Both the position numbers and the translations under genes were made by a program. A stretch of DNA of 64,000 nt from Archaeoglobaceae archaeon (GTDB lineage: Archaea; Halobacteriota; Archaeoglobi; Archaeoglobales; Archaeoglobaceae): assembly GCA_026985525.1 (NCBI GenBank), contig JALSQI010000039.1:1-64000 (forward strand), in the 5' to 3' direction. The notes below the pieces were generated by a model, which saw only the letters and a list, made by a program, of their open reading frames with translations, was not told where the DNA came from and did no database searches. How positions within the stretch are numbered: the stretch's first letter is position 1; every line of letters begins with the position of its first letter. Below are positions 139 to 8,252 of this stretch, one piece after another.

Positions 139-2799
139 TCACAGTAATCTGTCTTCTTCATCCTTTGCTTTCAATTTGTCTTTCATAAACCTGTCAAGCC
201 CGAATTCATAGATTAACTTTACATCTTCTTCATCCACTCCCATCACATAAAATCCTTTAAATTCGTGCTTAATTAACCGCATAAGGTCATCCAAATAGAA
301 TATAGGGATATTGACAGAGTATTGATACAATCTCTTCTTTAGTTCCAGTTTGTTTACGCCAATTTCGTTTTCTATTTCTTTCCACGTCTTCTTGTTGCTT
401 TCTGGATTTTCAACAATTTCTGCAAAGGCTTTGTCGATTTCATCTCCATAAATCTTCATGACAGCTGGTATCACAACCTGAATTCCGGCAATTCTCCTGA
501 ACAATCTTTGAGCTTGAGTCTTCTTTTCTACCGTAAAATACTTAAGAAATTCTAAGTTTCGCTTAATTTCTGCAACGTATATGTCTTTGAGAGTTGCGGT
601 ATTTCCGATAAGTTTGATCATATCTGGATCTACAACTTCAACAACCTTATTGAAGACTTCACAAATCATCGCTTTTTCGTCATCGTAGCTTAAGATGTTT
701 CCTTCAAATTCCTTTAAAACCTCAATGGTTTTTTCAACGACTCTTCTGTCGTAGATGGCTGAAGTTCCTCTATCTATCTTTATTTTACCGTTCTCAGATT
801 TTCCAATAAAAATTAAGATGTTTGATTCATTTCCTTTGTAATCACAATCTCTGTTTCTGTAAATTCTACCCCACCTCTGCACTTGGCTGTCAATTGGAGA
901 AACTTCAGTGATCATTACATCAAAGTCTAAATCTACAGAGGCTTCGATTATCTGCGTGGCAACAACTATAACTCGCTCATTTTTCTCTAATTTTTCTCTA
1001 ATCTCCTTTATTCGTCTATCCTTCTCTTTTTCAATCAATCGTGAATGTAAGAGATACGCATTGGGATATTTATCTTTTAACAGTTCATATACTTTAATCG
1101 CTTTGCTCACATTGTTTAAAACGATAAATATATTTTTGTCTTCGTATTTTTTAAGGTACTCTTTTAACACTTTATCATTGACTTTAATTGAGTATTGATT
1201 CTCCTCTTTTTCTTTTTTTTCTTTTTCTTCTTTCTTTTTATATTCAACCAACCAATCATCAACGATCTTTATTTTGTGTCGCTTTAGATTGTAGTTTTTC
1301 ACGTCGTTCTTGATGGTTTTCGTATTTATTTTTTCAAAGTTAAGCTTAAACTCTTCTGAAATACCATATTTCCTTCTTTCTTCTTCGAAGAAGAACGGCT
1401 CGAAATACGGTGGCAGTGTTGCAGTCATTACGAGCACAGCACCACCGAGATCTTGGACGATTTTGAGAGTTTTGATTATTATCGATGCCATTTCCGGATC
1501 GTATGTTTGAACTTCGTCGATTACGATAGAAGATAAAGGATACACAGCAACAACCTTATCCGATCCGTAATAGTTTAGAGATGTAAGAAATACTTGATCC
1601 GGCGTGGTCAAGAGAATTGGGGAAGATAACAATTTCGATGCGGTCAGCTGTCTCTCCACGTCGAGCTTTTTGCCTTTCCTCTCCTCTTCGAGGTATTCGA
1701 TGAATGCAGTAGAATGAAGGATATCCACTAAATTACCAAAGTAATCGTCCTTAAATCTCCAAAACAGATCGTTTAAAGCCACTCTCAACGGCAAAGTGTG
1801 GATCAATTTTCTCCTATTCTTGGTATTCCACAGCAAAGCAAACTCGGTTTTGCCCGATCCAGTTGGAGCTATGAGAACTATAGATTTTAACGGTTCTACT
1901 TCTTTAAGAAGCTTTTCCTGCCATATCGATTTTGCTTCGATTTTTTCCTTTATTTTCTCATTTAAATCCGCATAAATCTCTTCAAGCTTTTTGTTTATTT
2001 CCAGATCAACTTCACCGCTTGCGGAGTAATCACACCTTCTTAAACAACCTAAGAATACGATAAAATCGTAATCTGGATTTTCATTATCTATTTTATAGAA
2101 TTCTGCAAATTCTGAGATGTCATCGTCCCTATCTTGTATTTTTCTCAAAAGTTCCTCTACCTTTTCTCTTTTAATACAACTCCCGATTACATCCAACGCA
2201 TTTCTTACGAAGTTCTCACTAAATCTACTTTCGATTTCATTGAACAAATCATTCAAAAATTTCTCGATGTAATTCCAATTGTTCAAGATAAATTCAAGAT
2301 ATTTATTTATATCTTCAAGATAACCTTGAACTATCTCCATTAAATCTTGGTATCCCACGTAATATTCGTTGTAGTGGTGGAGCAAAATGGCCGTTCTTAT
2401 CTTAGAAAACCACTCTTTCCATTCGAATATATCATCGTCGAGTAAAATAGACGCCCATATAGAGGATAGGACTTCATGATCTCGAACCTTAACTTCATGC
2501 AACGGTCTTAAGAAATCTTCAAGCTCTTTCCAATCGTCGGATTTCTTACTGTGAACTCTTTTCTGAAAATCGTAGTTAATCTTACCGAAATCGTGAAGTA
2601 TTAAAGCTATAGCCAAAGCCGTGAAGAATTTTTCATTTTTTAAAAGGGGATAAGTAATTGTATCACCGTTAGTTTCAACAAATTCCTTCAGTTGTTTTGC
2701 TCTTTCTAATGTCTCAATTGCGTGATCTTTTAATAAAATGTTCTTGCCTTCTTCACCTTCCCTTTCCGATTTCGCCCTTAACAAATTGATTAAGTTCAT
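139..2799 (-). CDS. cas3: CRISPR-associated helicase-nuclease Cas3 (N-terminal HD domain)
   Basis: Cas3 is the ATP-dependent helicase and nuclease recruited by Cascade to degrade target DNA. An HD-nuclease domain fills roughly residues 20-250, with the LHDFGK motif near 70, a downstream RDHE and an HHYNEYY histidine pair. The superfamily-2 helicase follows: Walker A APTGSGKT near 313, DEVQ box, MTATLPP, then ASVDLDFD and QRWGRIYR for motifs V and VI. At about 886 residues it is a normal full-length fused Cas3. The ATG at 2799 overlaps the cas5 stop as TGATG, so I prefer it to the GTG at 2808. It is the last visible gene of the cas operon. Confidence 0.95.
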   Translation of the reverse strand: MNLINLLRAKSEREGEEGKNILLKDHAIETLERAKQLKEFVETNGDTITYPLLKNEKFFTALAIALILHDFGKINYDFQKRVHSKKSDDWKELEDFLRPLHEVKVRDHEVLSSIWASILLDDDIFEWKEWFSKIRTAILLHHYNEYYVGYQDLMEIVQGYLEDINKYLEFILNNWNYIEKFLNDLFNEIESRFSENFVRNALDVIGSCIKREKVEELLRKIQDRDDDISEFAEFYKIDNENPDYDFIVFLGCLRRCDYSASGEVDLEINKKLEEIYADLNEKIKEKIEAKSIWQEKLLKEVEPLKSIVLIAPTGSGKTEFALLWNTKNRRKLIHTLPLRVALNDLFWRFKDDYFGNLVDILHSTAFIEYLEEERKGKKLDVERQLTASKLLSSPILLTTPDQVFLTSLNYYGSDKVVAVYPLSSIVIDEVQTYDPEMASIIIKTLKIVQDLGGAVLVMTATLPPYFEPFFFEEERRKYGISEEFKLNFEKINTKTIKNDVKNYNLKRHKIKIVDDWLVEYKKKEEKEKKEKEENQYSIKVNDKVLKEYLKKYEDKNIFIVLNNVSKAIKVYELLKDKYPNAYLLHSRLIEKEKDRRIKEIREKLEKNERVIVVATQIIEASVDLDFDVMITEVSPIDSQVQRWGRIYRNRDCDYKGNESNILIFIGKSENGKIKIDRGTSAIYDRRVVEKTIEVLKEFEGNILSYDDEKAMICEVFNKVVEVVDPDMIKLIGNTATLKDIYVAEIKRNLEFLKYFTVEKKTQAQRLFRRIAGIQVVIPAVMKIYGDEIDKAFAEIVENPESNKKTWKEIENEIGVNKLELKKRLYQYSVNIPIFYLDDLMRLIKHEFKGFYVMGVDEEDVKLIYEFGLDRFMKDKLKAKDEEDRLL

Positions 2800-3662
2800 C
2801 ACAACCACCCATAATCGGTTGGAATTTTGAAAACTCTTTTATCGTCGATCTTATACTTTTCAACTTTAATTTCTCTTTCCAAATAAACAACGTAATCGTA
2901 TCCCGTATAGATAACGGTTTCAAATTCAACTTTTCTTTCTGTGTTTTTGTTAAGCTCAGCTTTGTTTCTAATCGTTCGTCCATTGTTCTTGAATTCAACC
3001 TTTACTGGAATTGAATATACTGGAAATTTATCGTTCCTTATTGGAAATTCATCTTCTGGTTTGCAATTATCTTTCTTTTTGTTCAGTTTGATGTATGTTG
3101 AATATTTAAGCCATAAAGATCTCTTTACCGATTTTACTTGCGGTTTAACTCCTTCATCTTCCAGTATTTTGGGTTTATTCTTTAGAAAAATCACGTCTTC
3201 GCTCCTTCCAAGACACAGAACTTTTTTGGGATTTTCTAAATTTGATTTTATTATTTCTATCAAATCTTCGTTTCCTTTCACGAAAATGAAGAGATGTCCG
3301 TTGAAAAGTTCTTGCTGATAAACTGGTATCCTCTGAGCTTTGATATTTGAATGATATAGAGGATGCCATATTTTACCAAGTGGATTTCTGTCGTGTTTGT
3401 TGAGCAATCCAATTTTACCGATAGTTATTTCACCTTTGATTAACTGCTGATAATTCCAAAACATACACTCAAAACCACCGTGAACGCTGACCTTTAAATT
3501 CCAAAACCTTTCATCATAGTAGTTGTCGGTTGCGTTTTGGAGCATTCCTATTATTGTCGATTTTGGTGGTAATGGGTATGTTTGAGCATAGTAAAAAGTA
3601 AATGGATTTCTATACTGGGTAAATGGCTGGAAGATTTCGATGAACAACGTTTTCTCGGGCAT
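2799..3662 (-). CDS. cas5: CRISPR-associated protein Cas5 (type I-B-like)
   Basis: Cas5 is the RAMP-fold Cascade subunit that caps the 5' handle of the crRNA. The N terminus shows the family pattern: a short beta strand (TLFIEIFQPFTQYRNPF), then a PPKSTIIGMLQNA segment near residues 33-45 that forms the conserved helix. The length of 287 residues is on the long side for Cas5. It lies between cas7 (4-base gap) and cas3 (1-base overlap), the usual cas7-cas5-cas3 order. Only the N-terminal motif is diagnostic by eye; position supports the rest. Confidence 0.88.
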   Translation of the reverse strand: MPEKTLFIEIFQPFTQYRNPFTFYYAQTYPLPPKSTIIGMLQNATDNYYDERFWNLKVSVHGGFECMFWNYQQLIKGEITIGKIGLLNKHDRNPLGKIWHPLYHSNIKAQRIPVYQQELFNGHLFIFVKGNEDLIEIIKSNLENPKKVLCLGRSEDVIFLKNKPKILEDEGVKPQVKSVKRSLWLKYSTYIKLNKKKDNCKPEDEFPIRNDKFPVYSIPVKVEFKNNGRTIRNKAELNKNTERKVEFETVIYTGYDYVVYLEREIKVEKYKIDDKRVFKIPTDYGWL

Positions 3663-3666
3663 ATTC

Positions 3667-4854
3667 TCACTTAATTGTTACTTCAACGCTTGGATCGTAA
3701 AACACTTTAACTTGTTCTAACTCCTCCGTTTTAGATTCATCTTTAAATATCAATTCTATGAAATTCCAGACGTTGTCCTTCGAGATCAATTCTTTGTCTT
3801 TGTTTTCGTCGTTTTGGGATTTCCTGTTATTATCATCCTCTGGATTTGTTTTCTCGTTATTTTCTGATTTTCGATTAAGAATTATTTCGAACACTGGCTT
3901 TTTACTCTTGGAAACAACATGCTTGACTTTTACAATTTTCTTGCCATCCTCTTCTCTTTCCTCTATTTCATCGTAGCTTTTTTCGGTGTATTCATCTTTG
4001 AGTATAATCCTGTCTTTGTAAGTCTTGTATGGCTTATTTTTGTAAATACCTACAACCATCAGTTTTGGTGATAGAGAATTTGGTATACCCTTTATTTCTC
4101 TATTAAGTCTCAATATAGCTTCGATTAACGTTTTAATTCGTGATTTAACTTTTTCTTGAGGTAAAGTATAATGAATTTCCCAAATTTTGTTTTCGATTTT
4201 TTTAATTTCTACATTTACATTTAACTCTTTATCGTTATCGTTAATTTTTAGTGATATTACACCCTTATCTCCGTTGCCTAAGATATTCTTTAATTTTTTA
4301 ATATCGGTATCCTTAGTTGTATACACAAACAAATTTCCAACTTTATCCGCATCAATAACAACGGTATACTGGTAAAATGTCTCGTGCTCCTCTTTTGTAA
4401 ATAAGTTTATGTTCATCTTGTCTATAACACCACTTGATAACGCTCTCTTAGCAATCCAATGATTACCACAGAAGTGCGTATCGTAGTTAAAAGGAGTCAT
4501 AGACACTGCATGGCTTATCTTTACGGGAGCTTCTCTGAAATTTTGTGGATCCGTGTTAGTAATTAAAAATCCAAACAGGTCGAATTCAGGGTAAGCCATT
4601 ATTTCGCCATTAAACAGCAAATCGGGTTTCGGTTGGATTGTCGCTTTACCACCACTTTCTTTTTTCTTTTCTTGTGTAAAAACGCTACCGGGTGCTAAGT
4701 TAAACCTCGACGAATGGAGTAGGCTATACCTCAAAGCGTATCTGCTAACTAATGTATATTGTCTGCCATCCCATTTCGTGATTTTCTTAAGCTCCTGATA
4801 GTTTCCTGTCCCCTGATCATAGTTCAGGGAGCTTCCATAAAACACGATATCCAT
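3667..4854 (-). CDS. cas7: CRISPR-associated protein Cas7 (Cst2/DevR-like backbone subunit)
   Basis: Cas7 polymerises along the crRNA to form the Cascade backbone. The N terminus (YGSSLNYDQGTGNYQELKKI), the segment YALRYSLLH and a DLFGFLIT stretch near residue 100 match the Cst2/DevR branch of Cas7 seen in type I-B loci. A very polar Asn/Lys/Glu linker around residues 325-360 precedes a short C-terminal beta segment. I prefer ATG 4854, starting MDIVFYG, over the upstream GTG at 4881, which would overlap the preceding gene. The product is about 395 residues. Confidence 0.9.
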   Translation of the reverse strand: MDIVFYGSSLNYDQGTGNYQELKKITKWDGRQYTLVSRYALRYSLLHSSRFNLAPGSVFTQEKKKESGGKATIQPKPDLLFNGEIMAYPEFDLFGFLITNTDPQNFREAPVKISHAVSMTPFNYDTHFCGNHWIAKRALSSGVIDKMNINLFTKEEHETFYQYTVVIDADKVGNLFVYTTKDTDIKKLKNILGNGDKGVISLKINDNDKELNVNVEIKKIENKIWEIHYTLPQEKVKSRIKTLIEAILRLNREIKGIPNSLSPKLMVVGIYKNKPYKTYKDRIILKDEYTEKSYDEIEEREEDGKKIVKVKHVVSKSKKPVFEIILNRKSENNEKTNPEDDNNRKSQNDENKDKELISKDNVWNFIELIFKDESKTEELEQVKVFYDPSVEVTIK

Positions 4855-4864
4855 CACGATAAAC

Positions 4865-5179
4865 CTACCCACTCTCACCACCTCCGGCTGACATAATACC
4901 TAAAATTATAGAATATGCAACTCTCTCAAATTCGGAAGAGCTTAAAGGAAACATTTTTCCGATTTTCTCGGATACCTCAGCAACTTTTGGATTGTCAGAA
5001 TTTGTGTTTAAAACCCTAAAAACCATCCAGAAAAATTCTTTTTGATTGTTGCATTTCACGGCGTTAAGTAGATTGTAAATTAGCTTTTGCCTGTAATTTT
5101 TTGAAACACCTTCAAAGATTTCCCGGAAGTCTTCCATGATTGAGCTATATACTCCTTTATTCTTCACTTTCGGATTCAT
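4865..5179 (-). CDS. Stand-alone Cascade small subunit (Cas11-like), paralogue of the Cas8 C-terminal domain
   Basis: This is an all-helical protein of about 104 residues between cas8 and cas7. Its sequence can be laid over the last 110 or so residues of the neighbouring Cas8: both have an aromatic-rich start (YRSLVNEI in Cas8, YSSIMEDF here), a Y-x-L-(V/L)-x-A-(L/V)-K segment, and a nearly shared end (LVIGILSGGE in Cas8, LGIMSAGGGE here). The C-terminal helical domain of Cas8 is where type I small subunits arise, so I infer a dedicated Cas11. The ATG at 5179 sits inside the end of cas8; ATG 5137, downstream of AAAGGAG, is an alternative. The name is by inference, not by recognised family. 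Confidence 0.7.
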   Translation of the reverse strand: MNPKVKNKGVYSSIMEDFREIFEGVSKNYRQKLIYNLLNAVKCNNQKEFFWMVFRVLNTNSDNPKVAEVSEKIGKMFPLSSSEFERVAYSIILGIMSAGGGESG

Positions 5180-6773
5180 CACTTTCCACCTCACCACCGC
5201 TTAAAATTCCAATAACCAAAGCGAGAGCGTAATTTTCCCACGAAACGTCGTTTGAAACGATATTTTCAAAAACGAATCTGTTGAGCTGTAAAACTTCTTT
5301 GCTTCCAGCATTTTCCAAGAATTTTTTGAGCAACGTATTTACAAATGCAATTCTATTTCTCTTTTTAAGTGCAGATACGAGAGTGTAACTAATTTGCCGT
5401 CTCTCTTCTAAACTATTATATAATTGGGAAATTTTGATAGCGTTTGAGTTTAGCGTAGAATAGCAATCTTTGATTTCGTTGACTAAACTCCTGTAACCTT
5501 CGAAGAATTTATCTGAAAATAAATCTATCTGGTTGTTTTCCTTTATTTTTGCGTCTATGGCTAATGCGTATAGTGATGCTTTGCGATATATGCCCTTTCC
5601 GTTCTTCGCTCTCAGACAATAATATATGTGCTTCGATATTAAGTCATATAACGACTTATTCTTAATGAACTCTTCTAAAATCCATAATAATTTATCTTTA
5701 TTTTTGTATTTTTCATCTTTACCCACAGGAACTTCAATATTCAAGGCTTCTCTTACAGGATCATCTATTAGTATGCTTGCTTGGAGTTTTGAAATACCTA
5801 TATATTCTACATTTTCAAAATCTTGCTTTTGACCAACAGGTGGTTTAATTTTAATCATATACATACTTTCAAGAGACCATATAGATTCTACCTCCGTTAG
5901 AGAATCAATAATCGATCTCCAAGTAACTTTAAATATGTTAGTACCATCTTGCTCAGATTTTTCAATATACTTCCGTAATTTTTTATTCACGGAATAAGTG
6001 AATTCTAAGTTAGGTGAATATACCATTAATTGATGTTTAAGTTGAACTAAAAGTTTGGAATCTGCAATAAAAGCTAAAGGATATGTTAAGATAAAAATAG
6101 GTGCTTTAGGATTTAACTTACATAGATCGTAAATTGTAATACAACTTTTCGTATAAGGTATATTAGGAAAATCCGATAAAGAAGGTAAGAATTTGCTTGT
6201 TGCTTTGTCAATATAAATCAATAATTTATCTTCAATTTCCTTCAATCCAAGCAGTCCCATAAGAATACTTTTCTGCTTTTCAATATCGTATCTTGGTTGA
6301 AAAAGTGGAAAATTTGTAAGAACTCTATACTTTCCGGACCAGCTTAATTTTATCCTCCTTTTACCTTTTTTTGTTTCCGTTAACGATTCGTTATTTGCTA
6401 TCCAGTCCCAAGCTTTATCAAAAAGATCATATATATTTGCGATCTTAGGTGCTTTAGGTATTTTTCTAATTATGTTATCTACTTCTTTTATTTTTTCTGA
6501 ACCTTTTTTACTCTGAGCTTCTCTTACCACATGACATATATACCCTATAGGAAAATACCAATAATACACGAGTTCTGGATTCTCTTTGATTCTTTCTTGT
6601 AATTCATCCAAATCCCAGCCATAGACTTCCTCCATCAAATTCACAAACCCTAAAATTCCAGCATCGATAAACCAGTTACCAGTGAACCTTAGCTCATGAG
6701 ATATACCGCTACCTGAGTTTGTATTTCTATCATCTTTTTCAAAGAATTCATCAAGTGTCGCAATCTTGCTCAT
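5157..6773 (-). CDS. cas8: Cascade large subunit Cas8 (Cst1/Cas8a1-like)
   Basis: Cas8 is the large Cascade subunit that recognises the PAM and contacts Cas3. The start (ELRFTGNWFIDAGILGFVNL, residues about 27-46) is the typical opening of the Cst1-type large subunit, and the length of 538 residues fits. I do not see the paired CXXC zinc motif that gives some of these proteins the CXXC-CXXC name. The C-terminal 110 residues form a helical domain repeated by the downstream small gene, followed by an acidic SDESESEE tail. It overlaps cas6 by 4 bases (ATGA), so the two are probably translationally coupled. Confidence 0.85.
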   Translation of the reverse strand: MSKIATLDEFFEKDDRNTNSGSGISHELRFTGNWFIDAGILGFVNLMEEVYGWDLDELQERIKENPELVYYWYFPIGYICHVVREAQSKKGSEKIKEVDNIIRKIPKAPKIANIYDLFDKAWDWIANNESLTETKKGKRRIKLSWSGKYRVLTNFPLFQPRYDIEKQKSILMGLLGLKEIEDKLLIYIDKATSKFLPSLSDFPNIPYTKSCITIYDLCKLNPKAPIFILTYPLAFIADSKLLVQLKHQLMVYSPNLEFTYSVNKKLRKYIEKSEQDGTNIFKVTWRSIIDSLTEVESIWSLESMYMIKIKPPVGQKQDFENVEYIGISKLQASILIDDPVREALNIEVPVGKDEKYKNKDKLLWILEEFIKNKSLYDLISKHIYYCLRAKNGKGIYRKASLYALAIDAKIKENNQIDLFSDKFFEGYRSLVNEIKDCYSTLNSNAIKISQLYNSLEERRQISYTLVSALKKRNRIAFVNTLLKKFLENAGSKEVLQLNRFVFENIVSNDVSWENYALALVIGILSGGEVESDESESEE

Positions 6774-7480
6774 ACAACCTTCACCATCCCAAAACCCATA
6801 CTGTTTCTCTCTCCAAACCCTGCCTTATACCCTATCTCCAACAACTCCCTACTCCCCTTAGCATCGAAGACCATCTCAACGCATCGATGGAAAGTGTTCT
6901 TTACTTTAATACGCTTAGGCTTAGTCCTGATAGGAGTTATTTCTAAATCGTACTCTTTTGGCTCTTTTTTAAATAAGCACAGATATTTATTTATTAGATT
7001 TAATTTTAAATTTTTATAAAAATCTGGATTGTCCGGATACAAGTCTCTAACCTTACCCTCCTTAGTAGTACTAACGTTTATTGGGGACAAAGTAACGAAT
7101 CTTTCTTTTTTTCCGATGTTCCTCTCTTTAATTACTGATATTTCAGAAATCGTAAACTTTGCACCGCAAATCTCAACGTTTGGCTCGCTCAACAAACCCT
7201 CGACTAAAGCTTTAGCAATTTCATCAACAGGGGTAGAAAAGTAAAAGTAAACGTCTCTACTCACTATAACCATGTGATTGTCAACTATCTTAAACATCCT
7301 TTTGGGAACCATAAGTTTGCTAAAAGTAAAAAATTTAAAACCTTTCTTTTCGTGTAAATTTAAAGATAGAGATCCGTCAGATTTCTGAATTCTTCTGTAT
7401 ATAAGACTGGCGAGGTTGTAATTGTAATTTAAATCCAAAACAGCATCACCTATTCTTTCTAATTCAATTCGCAACCTCAC
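6770..7480 (-). CDS. cas6: CRISPR RNA endonuclease Cas6
   Basis: Cas6 cuts pre-crRNA within the repeat. This 236-residue protein has the Cas6 RAMP pattern: a beta-strand start RLRIELERIG, a histidine in the segment NLHEKKGFKFFTFS near residue 43 (the usual position of the catalytic histidine), and the C-terminal glycine-rich loop GFGERNSMGFGMVKV. The start is GTG at 7480. It is the first gene of the cas operon, so the promoter should lie in the AT-rich gap before the tRNA genes. Confidence 0.92.
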   Translation of the reverse strand: MRLRIELERIGDAVLDLNYNYNLASLIYRRIQKSDGSLSLNLHEKKGFKFFTFSKLMVPKRMFKIVDNHMVIVSRDVYFYFSTPVDEIAKALVEGLLSEPNVEICGAKFTISEISVIKERNIGKKERFVTLSPINVSTTKEGKVRDLYPDNPDFYKNLKLNLINKYLCLFKKEPKEYDLEITPIRTKPKRIKVKNTFHRCVEMVFDAKGSRELLEIGYKAGFGERNSMGFGMVKVV

Positions 7481-7608
7481 ATTAAGTTTTTAGAGTGAAC
7501 TTCAATATTAATTTTTTGATTTTATTGCAATTTAAGTTACAACAAAGATTAATTGTGTTTAAACTATGATCAAATAAACAATGTGACAATCGAGAACGAT
7601 CAGAAAAG
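7481..7608 (-). promoter_or_regulatory. Probable promoter region of the cas operon
   Basis: This 128-base AT-rich gap separates tRNA-Arg from the cas6 start. Every cas gene downstream overlaps or nearly abuts its neighbour, so a single promoter should lie here. Several TATA-like AT runs are present on the minus strand and I cannot choose one. No CRISPR repeat or leader is visible. Confidence 0.4.
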
Positions 7609-7683
7609 CGGACCCGGCGGGATTTGAACCCGCGATCTGCAGCTTAGGAGGCTGCCGCCTTATCCATGCTAGGCTACGGGTCC
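7609..7683 (-). tRNA. tRNA-Arg (anticodon CCT)
   Basis: The minus strand folds into a complete cloverleaf of 75 nt. The acceptor stem GGACCCG pairs with CGGGTCC, the anticodon stem GCAGC/GCTGC encloses loop CTCCTAA (anticodon CCT, reading AGG), and the T arm contains GTTCAAATC. The discriminator base is G. CCA is not encoded and there is no intron. Confidence 0.95.
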
Positions 7684-7711: not shown

Positions 7712-7726
7712 ATAAACGTTACTACA

Positions 7727-7799
7727 AGCCGCCGCCGGGATTTGAACCCGGGACCTGGTGATTACGAATCACCCGCTCTGCCAGCTAAGCCACGGCGGC
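7727..7799 (-). tRNA. tRNA-Thr (anticodon CGT)
   Basis: A complete 73-nt cloverleaf lies on the minus strand. The acceptor GCCGCCG pairs with CGGCGGC, the anticodon stem GGTGA/TCACC closes loop TTCGTAA (anticodon CGT, reading ACG), and the T arm CCGGG-TTCAAAT-CCCGG is perfect. The discriminator is T. CCA is not encoded. The gene starts directly after the mobB stop codon and 43 bases upstream of tRNA-Arg, so all three may share a transcript. Confidence 0.95.
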
Positions 7800-8252
7800 T
7801 CACTCCTCTAAGGAGTGATTAGAAATATTAACTTTGCGGATGTCAAGTATCTTTCTAACAAGCTCTTTTACATCAACTCTTCCTTCAACAACATCTCTTT
7901 CGTTCAGTCTTTCAATTACTTCACCTTCGCACGGAACGTTACCAATTACTATTTTCCTAAGGTTCTTAGACTTGAACCCTTCCACAATAACGATATCAGC
8001 TTTAACTATTTTCCCCAACTCATCCAAGCTAAGTTCTCTTCTGAGCATTAATGCAGTAAACTCTTCTCCAATCATAGCTACTTCCGCTCCAGCGTTCCAC
8101 ATTCTCCAGCTATCTTTTCCTTCGACATCAAACTTTTTACCATGCTTTACTGCTAAAACTTTAAATCCCATGGACAAAAACTCTTTTATTAACATTTCAA
8201 CGAGAGTTGTTTTACCCGAATTTGAGTAGCCTGAAACTGCAATTACTATCAT
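7800..8252 (-). CDS. mobB: Molybdopterin-guanine dinucleotide biosynthesis adaptor MobB
   Basis: MobB is a P-loop GTPase that assists the addition of guanine dinucleotide to molybdopterin. The 150-residue protein begins with a beta strand and Walker A loop (SGYSNSGKTTLVEML, residues about 7-21), followed by an AVKHG segment and a VIVEGFK stretch near residue 90, both typical of MobB. It overlaps the aCPSF1 gene by 4 bases (ATGA), so the two are cotranscribed. It fits with the moeA genes and the tungsten/molybdenum enzyme FwdB elsewhere in the window. Confidence 0.9.
   Translation of the reverse strand: MIVIAVSGYSNSGKTTLVEMLIKEFLSMGFKVLAVKHGKKFDVEGKDSWRMWNAGAEVAMIGEEFTALMLRRELSLDELGKIVKADIVIVEGFKSKNLRKIVIGNVPCEGEVIERLNERDVVEGRVDVKELVRKILDIRKVNISNHSLEE

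Follow-up and report, generated by a model that had tools for sequence, protein, structure and literature searches.

A stand-alone cas11b gene beside cas8 in an archaeal type I-B operon: a probable old paralogue of the Cas8 C-terminal domain

Between cas8 and cas7 of the operon studied here lies a small gene, which raises the questions of what it encodes, how it is related to the C-terminal domain (CTD) of Cas8, and whether it does the work that an internal start within cas8 does elsewhere. In our judgement it is very probably cas11b, the gene for the small subunit of type I-B Cascade, with a start of its own. Its product and the Cas8 CTD would be paralogues that separated long ago, and the cas8 gene beside it would have lost the internal start.

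The window, that is, the whole stretch of 64,000 nucleotides analysed, begins at the start of its contig, and its closest relatives belong to Archaeoglobaceae. All genes of the operon are on the minus strand: cas6 (6770-7480; TIGR01877 E 1e-48, PADLOC Cas6 E 3e-83); cas8b, encoding a large subunit of 538 residues of what we call the two-gene variant (5157-6773; PADLOC PDLC01542 Cas8b E 7e-118); the small gene, cas11b, encoding a stand-alone small subunit of 104 residues when counted from ATG 5179 (4865-5179; PDLC01541 E 6e-33); cas7 of the Cst2/DevR type, with a likely start at GTG 4872 (3667-4881; TIGR02585 E 6e-69); cas5 of the Cas5t type (2799-3662; PADLOC CAS-I-B Cas5 E 3e-45, TIGR02593 over its cut-off, and TIGR01895 at E 7e-26, below that model's curated cut-off); and cas3, encoding HD nuclease and helicase (139-2808; TIGR01587 E 1e-70, TIGR01596 E 8e-19, PADLOC Cas3b E 7e-122). 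The type I-B effector genes cas6, cas8b, cas7, cas5 and cas3 are thereby found together in a single operon. In the family scans, cas8b matched no Pfam or NCBIfam family significantly, and both cas8b and the small gene had significant matches in PADLOC only. A tandem-repeat search found no CRISPR array in the window, where the contig starts beside the end of cas3 and the flanking genes are missing; in a close relative (G031), cas2, cas1 and cas4, named by eye, lie beyond cas3. Two tRNA genes, Arg-CCT and Thr-CGT (7608-7683 and 7726-7800, minus strand), directly adjoin the cas operon.

As read from the sequence, overlapping starts link cas8 to cas11 and cas11 to cas7. The small gene overlaps cas8, and although its frame is open from the codon at 5197, its probable start is ATG 5179 or GTG 5182, which lie just downstream of a Shine-Dalgarno (SD) sequence, GAGGTG (5187-5192, minus strand; duplex energy -10.8 kcal/mol), within the end of cas8 (...GGTGGTGAGGTGGAAAGTGATG...). 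The SD of cas7, GGAGGTG (4879-4885, minus strand; -15.8 kcal/mol), lies within the end of cas11 (...GGAGGTGGTGAGAGTGGG...) and is part of the codons for the Gly-Gly-Gly-Glu tail of Cas11. Translation of cas11b would thus begin at its own start by means of a strong SD in the last cas8 codons, and cas7, which starts within the last codons of cas11, would be translated likewise.

The small protein and the C-terminal domain of Cas8

The sequence-only reading had aligned the small protein with about the last 110 residues of Cas8 and left the matter to profile and structure comparisons, and both bear the alignment out. When an alignment of seven Cas8 CTDs was compared with one of nine Cas11s, hhalign gave a probability of 96.7% and a score of 59.2, well above the controls (a maximum of 24.5 in 100 column shuffles, and 11.7 with a reversed profile). 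The probability was still 95.6% without the glycine-rich tails and 85.8% without the entire last helix. For the window pair alone, the pairwise BLOSUM62 score of 77 was reached by none of 1000 shuffles. The PADLOC Cas11b profile PDLC01541, which spans residues 20-106 of the small gene's 110-residue open frame, independently matches Cas8 at residues 456-528 (E 7e-6), within the Cas11-like CTD at residues 418-538 (5160-5522, minus strand), a domain also seen in the AlphaFold2 model. Conversely, PDLC02050, the Cas8b profile of systems with one gene only, matches the window's small protein through its C-terminal positions (E 1e-8); in two-gene genomes these positions find the stand-alone Cas11 and not the genome's own Cas8 CTD.

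AlphaFold2 predicts a five-helix bundle for both the small protein and the Cas8 CTD rather than different folds. In the Cas11 model (pLDDT 87, pTM 0.81) the helices are at residues 3-21, 27-42, 46-59, 65-76 and 81-96, so that the protein of 104 residues falls within the size and all-helical fold of a Cas11 (about 100-150 residues). In the model of Cas8 segment 395-538 (pLDDT 86, pTM 0.81) they are at 27-55, 61-76, 80-93, 98-112 and 118-131 and are preceded by one extra helix. Helix order and aligned residues agree between the two models. A Foldseek search of the PDB returned nothing significant for either model: the highest probability for Cas11, 0.41, was for a type I-A Cascade chain (7tr6_E), and the search with the Cas8 CTD was uninformative. 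PDB sequence searches from the Cas11 and Cas8 alignments gave nothing relevant, and a search for Cas11 in plasmids gave no match. Taken together, the identification of the small gene as a stand-alone cas11b whose product is homologous to the Cas8 CTD is supported.

Among the motif pairs offered earlier in favor of the alignment, YTLVSALK/YNLLNAVK and VIGIL/ILGIM do fall in the aligned core, but the shared GGE ending has to be set aside. Its codons form the SD of the downstream gene, and in one locus where cas8 and cas11 do not overlap (L028) the tail is absent from both proteins; the shared tails are therefore explained by translation signals and not by descent, and we rejected them as evidence for homology.

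Internal starts within cas8

It had been claimed that cas8 lacks an in-frame ATG, GTG or TTG from about residue 395 to 450. The start-free stretch is genuine and even longer, covering residues 351-480 (5334-5723, minus strand). However, permutation of the codons of this gene gave a P of about 0.11 for zero starts 88-145 codons from the end, and of about 0.09 for any start-free run of that length, so the absence of starts from this single gene was rejected as significant by itself. Because a P of about 0.1 means that one gene proves little, 50 cas8 genes were compared in three sets: two-gene systems (n=11), one-gene Thermotogota (n=16) and one-gene archaea (n=23). Each was scored by the best anti-SD duplex before an in-frame start 88-145 codons upstream of the stop, with -8 kcal/mol or below counted as strong.

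The sets differed clearly. Two-gene cas8 genes had a median of -3.7 kcal/mol and a strong internal site in only 1/11, the exception (L090) being a good SD-ATG 132 codons from the end, which counts against our preferred explanation. For one-gene Thermotogota the median was -12.1 kcal/mol, with 14/16 at -8 or below (e.g. GAGGTGAAAGATATG), and for one-gene archaea it was -10.7 kcal/mol, with 17/23 at -8 or below; the Cst1 genes of Archaeoglobaceae (L104-L112) reached -13 to -17, including one (L111) from the window's own genus. The two-gene set differed from each one-gene set with Mann-Whitney p values of 1e-5 and 3e-5, shared ancestry being ignored. The window cas8 has zero internal sites, against these one-gene medians, and does not look like a gene from which Cas11b is translated internally. 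Across the 50 cas8 genes, those with a separate cas11 beside them mostly lack the internal start, and those without one mostly have it.

Two trivial reasons for this pattern were considered and rejected. That two-gene archaea use no SDs is contradicted by the strong ones before cas11 (-7 to -15 kcal/mol) and mostly before cas7 (mostly -9 to -16 kcal/mol) in these same genomes, and the missing site inside cas8 is therefore specific. Nor does the pattern merely separate bacteria from archaea, as one-gene archaea, including L111, have the site and a two-gene Thermotogaceae genome (L030) is without it. Four one-gene Thermotogota were exceptions: L080 and L081 had no strong site, and in L082 and L084 it was present only at 88 codons. 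They are presumably comparable to Thermotoga maritima, in which the internal start is weak when expressed in E. coli (PMC13199841). The internal products predicted for most one-gene Thermotogota (101-113 residues) are about equal in length and N-terminal position to the stand-alone Cas11s (about 95-118 residues).

It might be argued that the small gene is not a working subunit and that a product of cas8 itself, made from a non-standard start or by cleavage, still serves, since ATA, ATT and CTG codons do occur in frame in the region. However, the window gene is without ATG, GTG or TTG over 130 codons, the sites are weak in 10/11 two-gene genes, and cas11 is conserved with a strong SD of its own, all of which makes such a product highly improbable. 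In the explanation that we favor, the roles of the two window proteins are taken from a published type I-B structure, in which the belly that supports the non-target strand is made up of the Cas8 CTD and three copies of Cas11b (PMC11096372). By analogy, the Cas8 CTD would stay attached as the fixed end of this belly, and free Cas11 copies, lined up on the Cas7 backbone, would lengthen it and give support to the displaced DNA strand; the incorporation of Cas11 into the complex and its copy number would presumably follow the same model. In one-gene relatives a single sequence would do both jobs through the internal start, while in the window the two jobs would be divided between two genes, with the internal start lost.

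Distribution, age and origin of the two-gene form

The order cas8-cas11-cas7-cas5-cas3 was observed in every complete two-gene locus examined, so that cas11 has the same two neighbours, cas8 and cas7, in all of them as in the window. The operon recurs in G031, G027, L026-L028, L030 and L089-L092. Its gene order is shared by Archaeoglobaceae, Methanobacteriota, one Thermoplasmatota metagenome-assembled genome (MAG) and one Thermotogaceae MAG; the sequence-only reading had suggested looking for the pair in related Archaeoglobales. The profile pair PDLC01541 and PDLC01542 also matches the two-gene relatives tested. Cas11b of the PDLC01541 type is rare, being present in 4/394 genomes of the window's phylum, all within the window's family, and in 5/152 of the Methanobacteriota set, plus one disrupted match. 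A scan of genome contigs added the Thermoplasmatota MAG, two other archaeal MAGs, Methanobrevibacter curvatus and the Thermotogaceae MAG. Cas11 distances are correlated with those of the N-terminal part of Cas8 (Mantel r 0.73, p 2e-4), which argues that the cas8-cas11 pair travels together.

Several further observations were made during these searches. In one Methanobacteriota genome (L093; G535:C158:1945-2169), a Cas11b-like stretch is degraded by five stop codons and is perhaps the relic of a two-gene system. One Archaeoglobales genome (G148) has an orphan Cas11b of 95 residues (PDLC01541 E 4e-22; L020 7564-7851, minus strand, the same as L031 6013-6300), adjoining Elp3-like and thioredoxin-like genes; DevR-type Cas7 genes lie elsewhere, and a search of that genome for a matching Cas8 found none. 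In two two-gene loci, what by eye appears to be a HEPN-MNT toxin-antitoxin pair lies just before cas8 (L019 4262-4962; L026 52-519), in the former between cas6 and cas8. In one Thermotogota genome (G457; L085 701-2451), cas8 is split into genes of 399 and 184 residues with a stop/start overlap; this may be a frameshift, or else fission as another way of arriving at a separate Cas11. Finally, a protein of about 132 residues is conserved in Methanobacteriota, outside any cas operon in seven genomes (L140 4691-5089, L141 4468-4866, L144 4694-5101 and L146 4778-5176; in reverse-complement coordinates, L142 4553-4951, L143 4603-4998 and L145 4530-4952). It matches only the C-terminal end of Cas8b/Csh1 (PF09484 positions 497-601, E 4.5e-25) and mostly stands behind a gene for about 170 residues and one or two genes for about 300 residues; it would be a Cas11-like gene standing alone, away from CRISPR.

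In an unrooted tree of CTDs and Cas11s, the stand-alone Cas11s form a single clade (98.5/99) and the two-gene Cas8 CTDs are set apart from the rest (98.3/99). Cas11 and the Cas8 CTD of one lineage do not come out as sisters, as they would after a recent tandem duplication, and approximately unbiased (AU) tests reject duplication within single lineages (p 2.5e-61 for the window with G031, and 1e-4 for Methanobacteriota). The split therefore appears to be old and, as far as the Cas11b family has been sampled, to have occurred once. The earlier description of this locus as a direct picture of how separate cas11 genes arise is not supported if a recent event is meant, as the pair is old and present in several archaeal and bacterial lineages, with AU p values of about 1e-4 or less. 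Rooting of the tree with Cst1 and Csh1 was dropped because their C-terminal regions show zero detectable similarity to the Cas11/CTD family (hhalign probability <=1%).

About 100 residues can be aligned, and they allow for duplication, for capture, or for fusion followed by loss. We tentatively derive the second copy from the 3' end of cas8 by duplication in tandem, and we give roughly even chances to the full version of this history, in which a gene within a gene was resolved by duplication: while the fixed copy diverged, the free one retained what is typical of Cas11 and evolved at a slower pace, and cas8 lost its internal ribosome-binding site. Consistent with this, Cas11 is slower than the CTD (mean distance 1.49 vs 1.93). 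One-gene CTDs of the PDLC02050 group are closer to the stand-alone Cas11 than to the two-gene CTD (hhalign score 59.4 vs 43.6), as it should be if the constraints common to both continued to act on the free copy, but also if cas11, as the detached CTD of a one-gene type I-B system, was captured by a Cas8 whose CTD was already different. Such a capture, which would differ from duplication in origin only and not in function, also agrees with the separate position of the two-gene CTDs, and AU tests do not reject a grouping of Cas11, or of the two-gene CTD, with either one-gene group (p 0.35-0.46). However, the stand-alone Cas11s group in a single clade, with distances that run parallel to those of Cas8, and a slower free copy after local duplication would give the same picture, so we find capture possible but rather unlikely. 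As the tree is unrooted and does not fix the order of states, and as the small subunit is a separate protein in other Class 1 systems (PMC11899642, PMC3150331), namely I-A, I-E and type III, the separate cas11 might even be ancestral, the CTD having arisen by fusion, with one-gene systems having lost the gene and gained the internal start. Yet one-gene systems are present in several Cas8 families, and within the window's phylum and the Methanobacteriota set the two-gene form was found in only the few genomes counted above, which makes this order of events improbable. Most likely, then, the separate cas11 gene took over the role of the internal start long ago. Of the earlier proposal that gene duplication replaced internal initiation, the replacement fits the mostly absent internal start beside a separate cas11, and duplication has capture and fusion as competitors.

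Comparison with known systems

The Cas11b gene family is not new: PDLC01541 is listed in PADLOC as a type I-B small subunit (CAS-I-B effector_SS), and the window pair matches both this profile and PDLC01542 strongly; the PADLOC library gives family names only. A resemblance between small subunits and the Cas8 C-terminus had likewise been suggested before (PMC3150331). A 2023 review describes the evolutionary lineage of type I Cas11 as unknown and raises, as an untested possibility and with no worked example, that cas11 was duplicated to give a gene of its own (PMC10212523), and a separate cas11 gene has been listed only for I-A and I-E (PMC7064716, PMC13199841), a picture that the two-gene I-B variant does not fit. 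In the literature searched, which did not extend to McBride et al. 2020, the central study of internal translation, neither the Cas8-CTD paralogy nor the lack of an internal start was described for the two-gene variant. What seems to be new is a worked example with one-gene counterparts, together with an internal start that is present or absent in reciprocal fashion. Natural one-gene/two-gene pairs, even inside one archaeal genus, allow gain and loss of the internal start to be compared directly; and in heterologous applications, type I-B systems that naturally have a separate cas11 might be spared the internal-start failure reported for Thermotoga maritima in E. coli (PMC13199841).

Type I-A Csa5 and type I-E Cse2 are, like the window's Cas11, separately encoded helical small subunits, although sequence similarity to it was undetected in the PDB search, and no description of a Cas8 CTD paralogue of this kind was found for I-A or I-E in the literature searched. 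Closer are the type I-B Cas8b proteins of Thermotogota (strong and weak PDLC02050 matches), whose CTD is homologous (hhalign 91.6-96.6%); these systems have one gene only, with cas8 followed directly by cas7 and an internal SD-start in most. In the type I-B systems of Haloferax volcanii and Synechocystis 6714, Cas11b is the C-terminal part of Cas8b, produced from an internal cas8b start (PMC11899642, PMC11096372). Role and protein region are the same as for the window's Cas11b, but here, unlike in those two systems, Cas11b has its own gene and cas8 is without the internal start.
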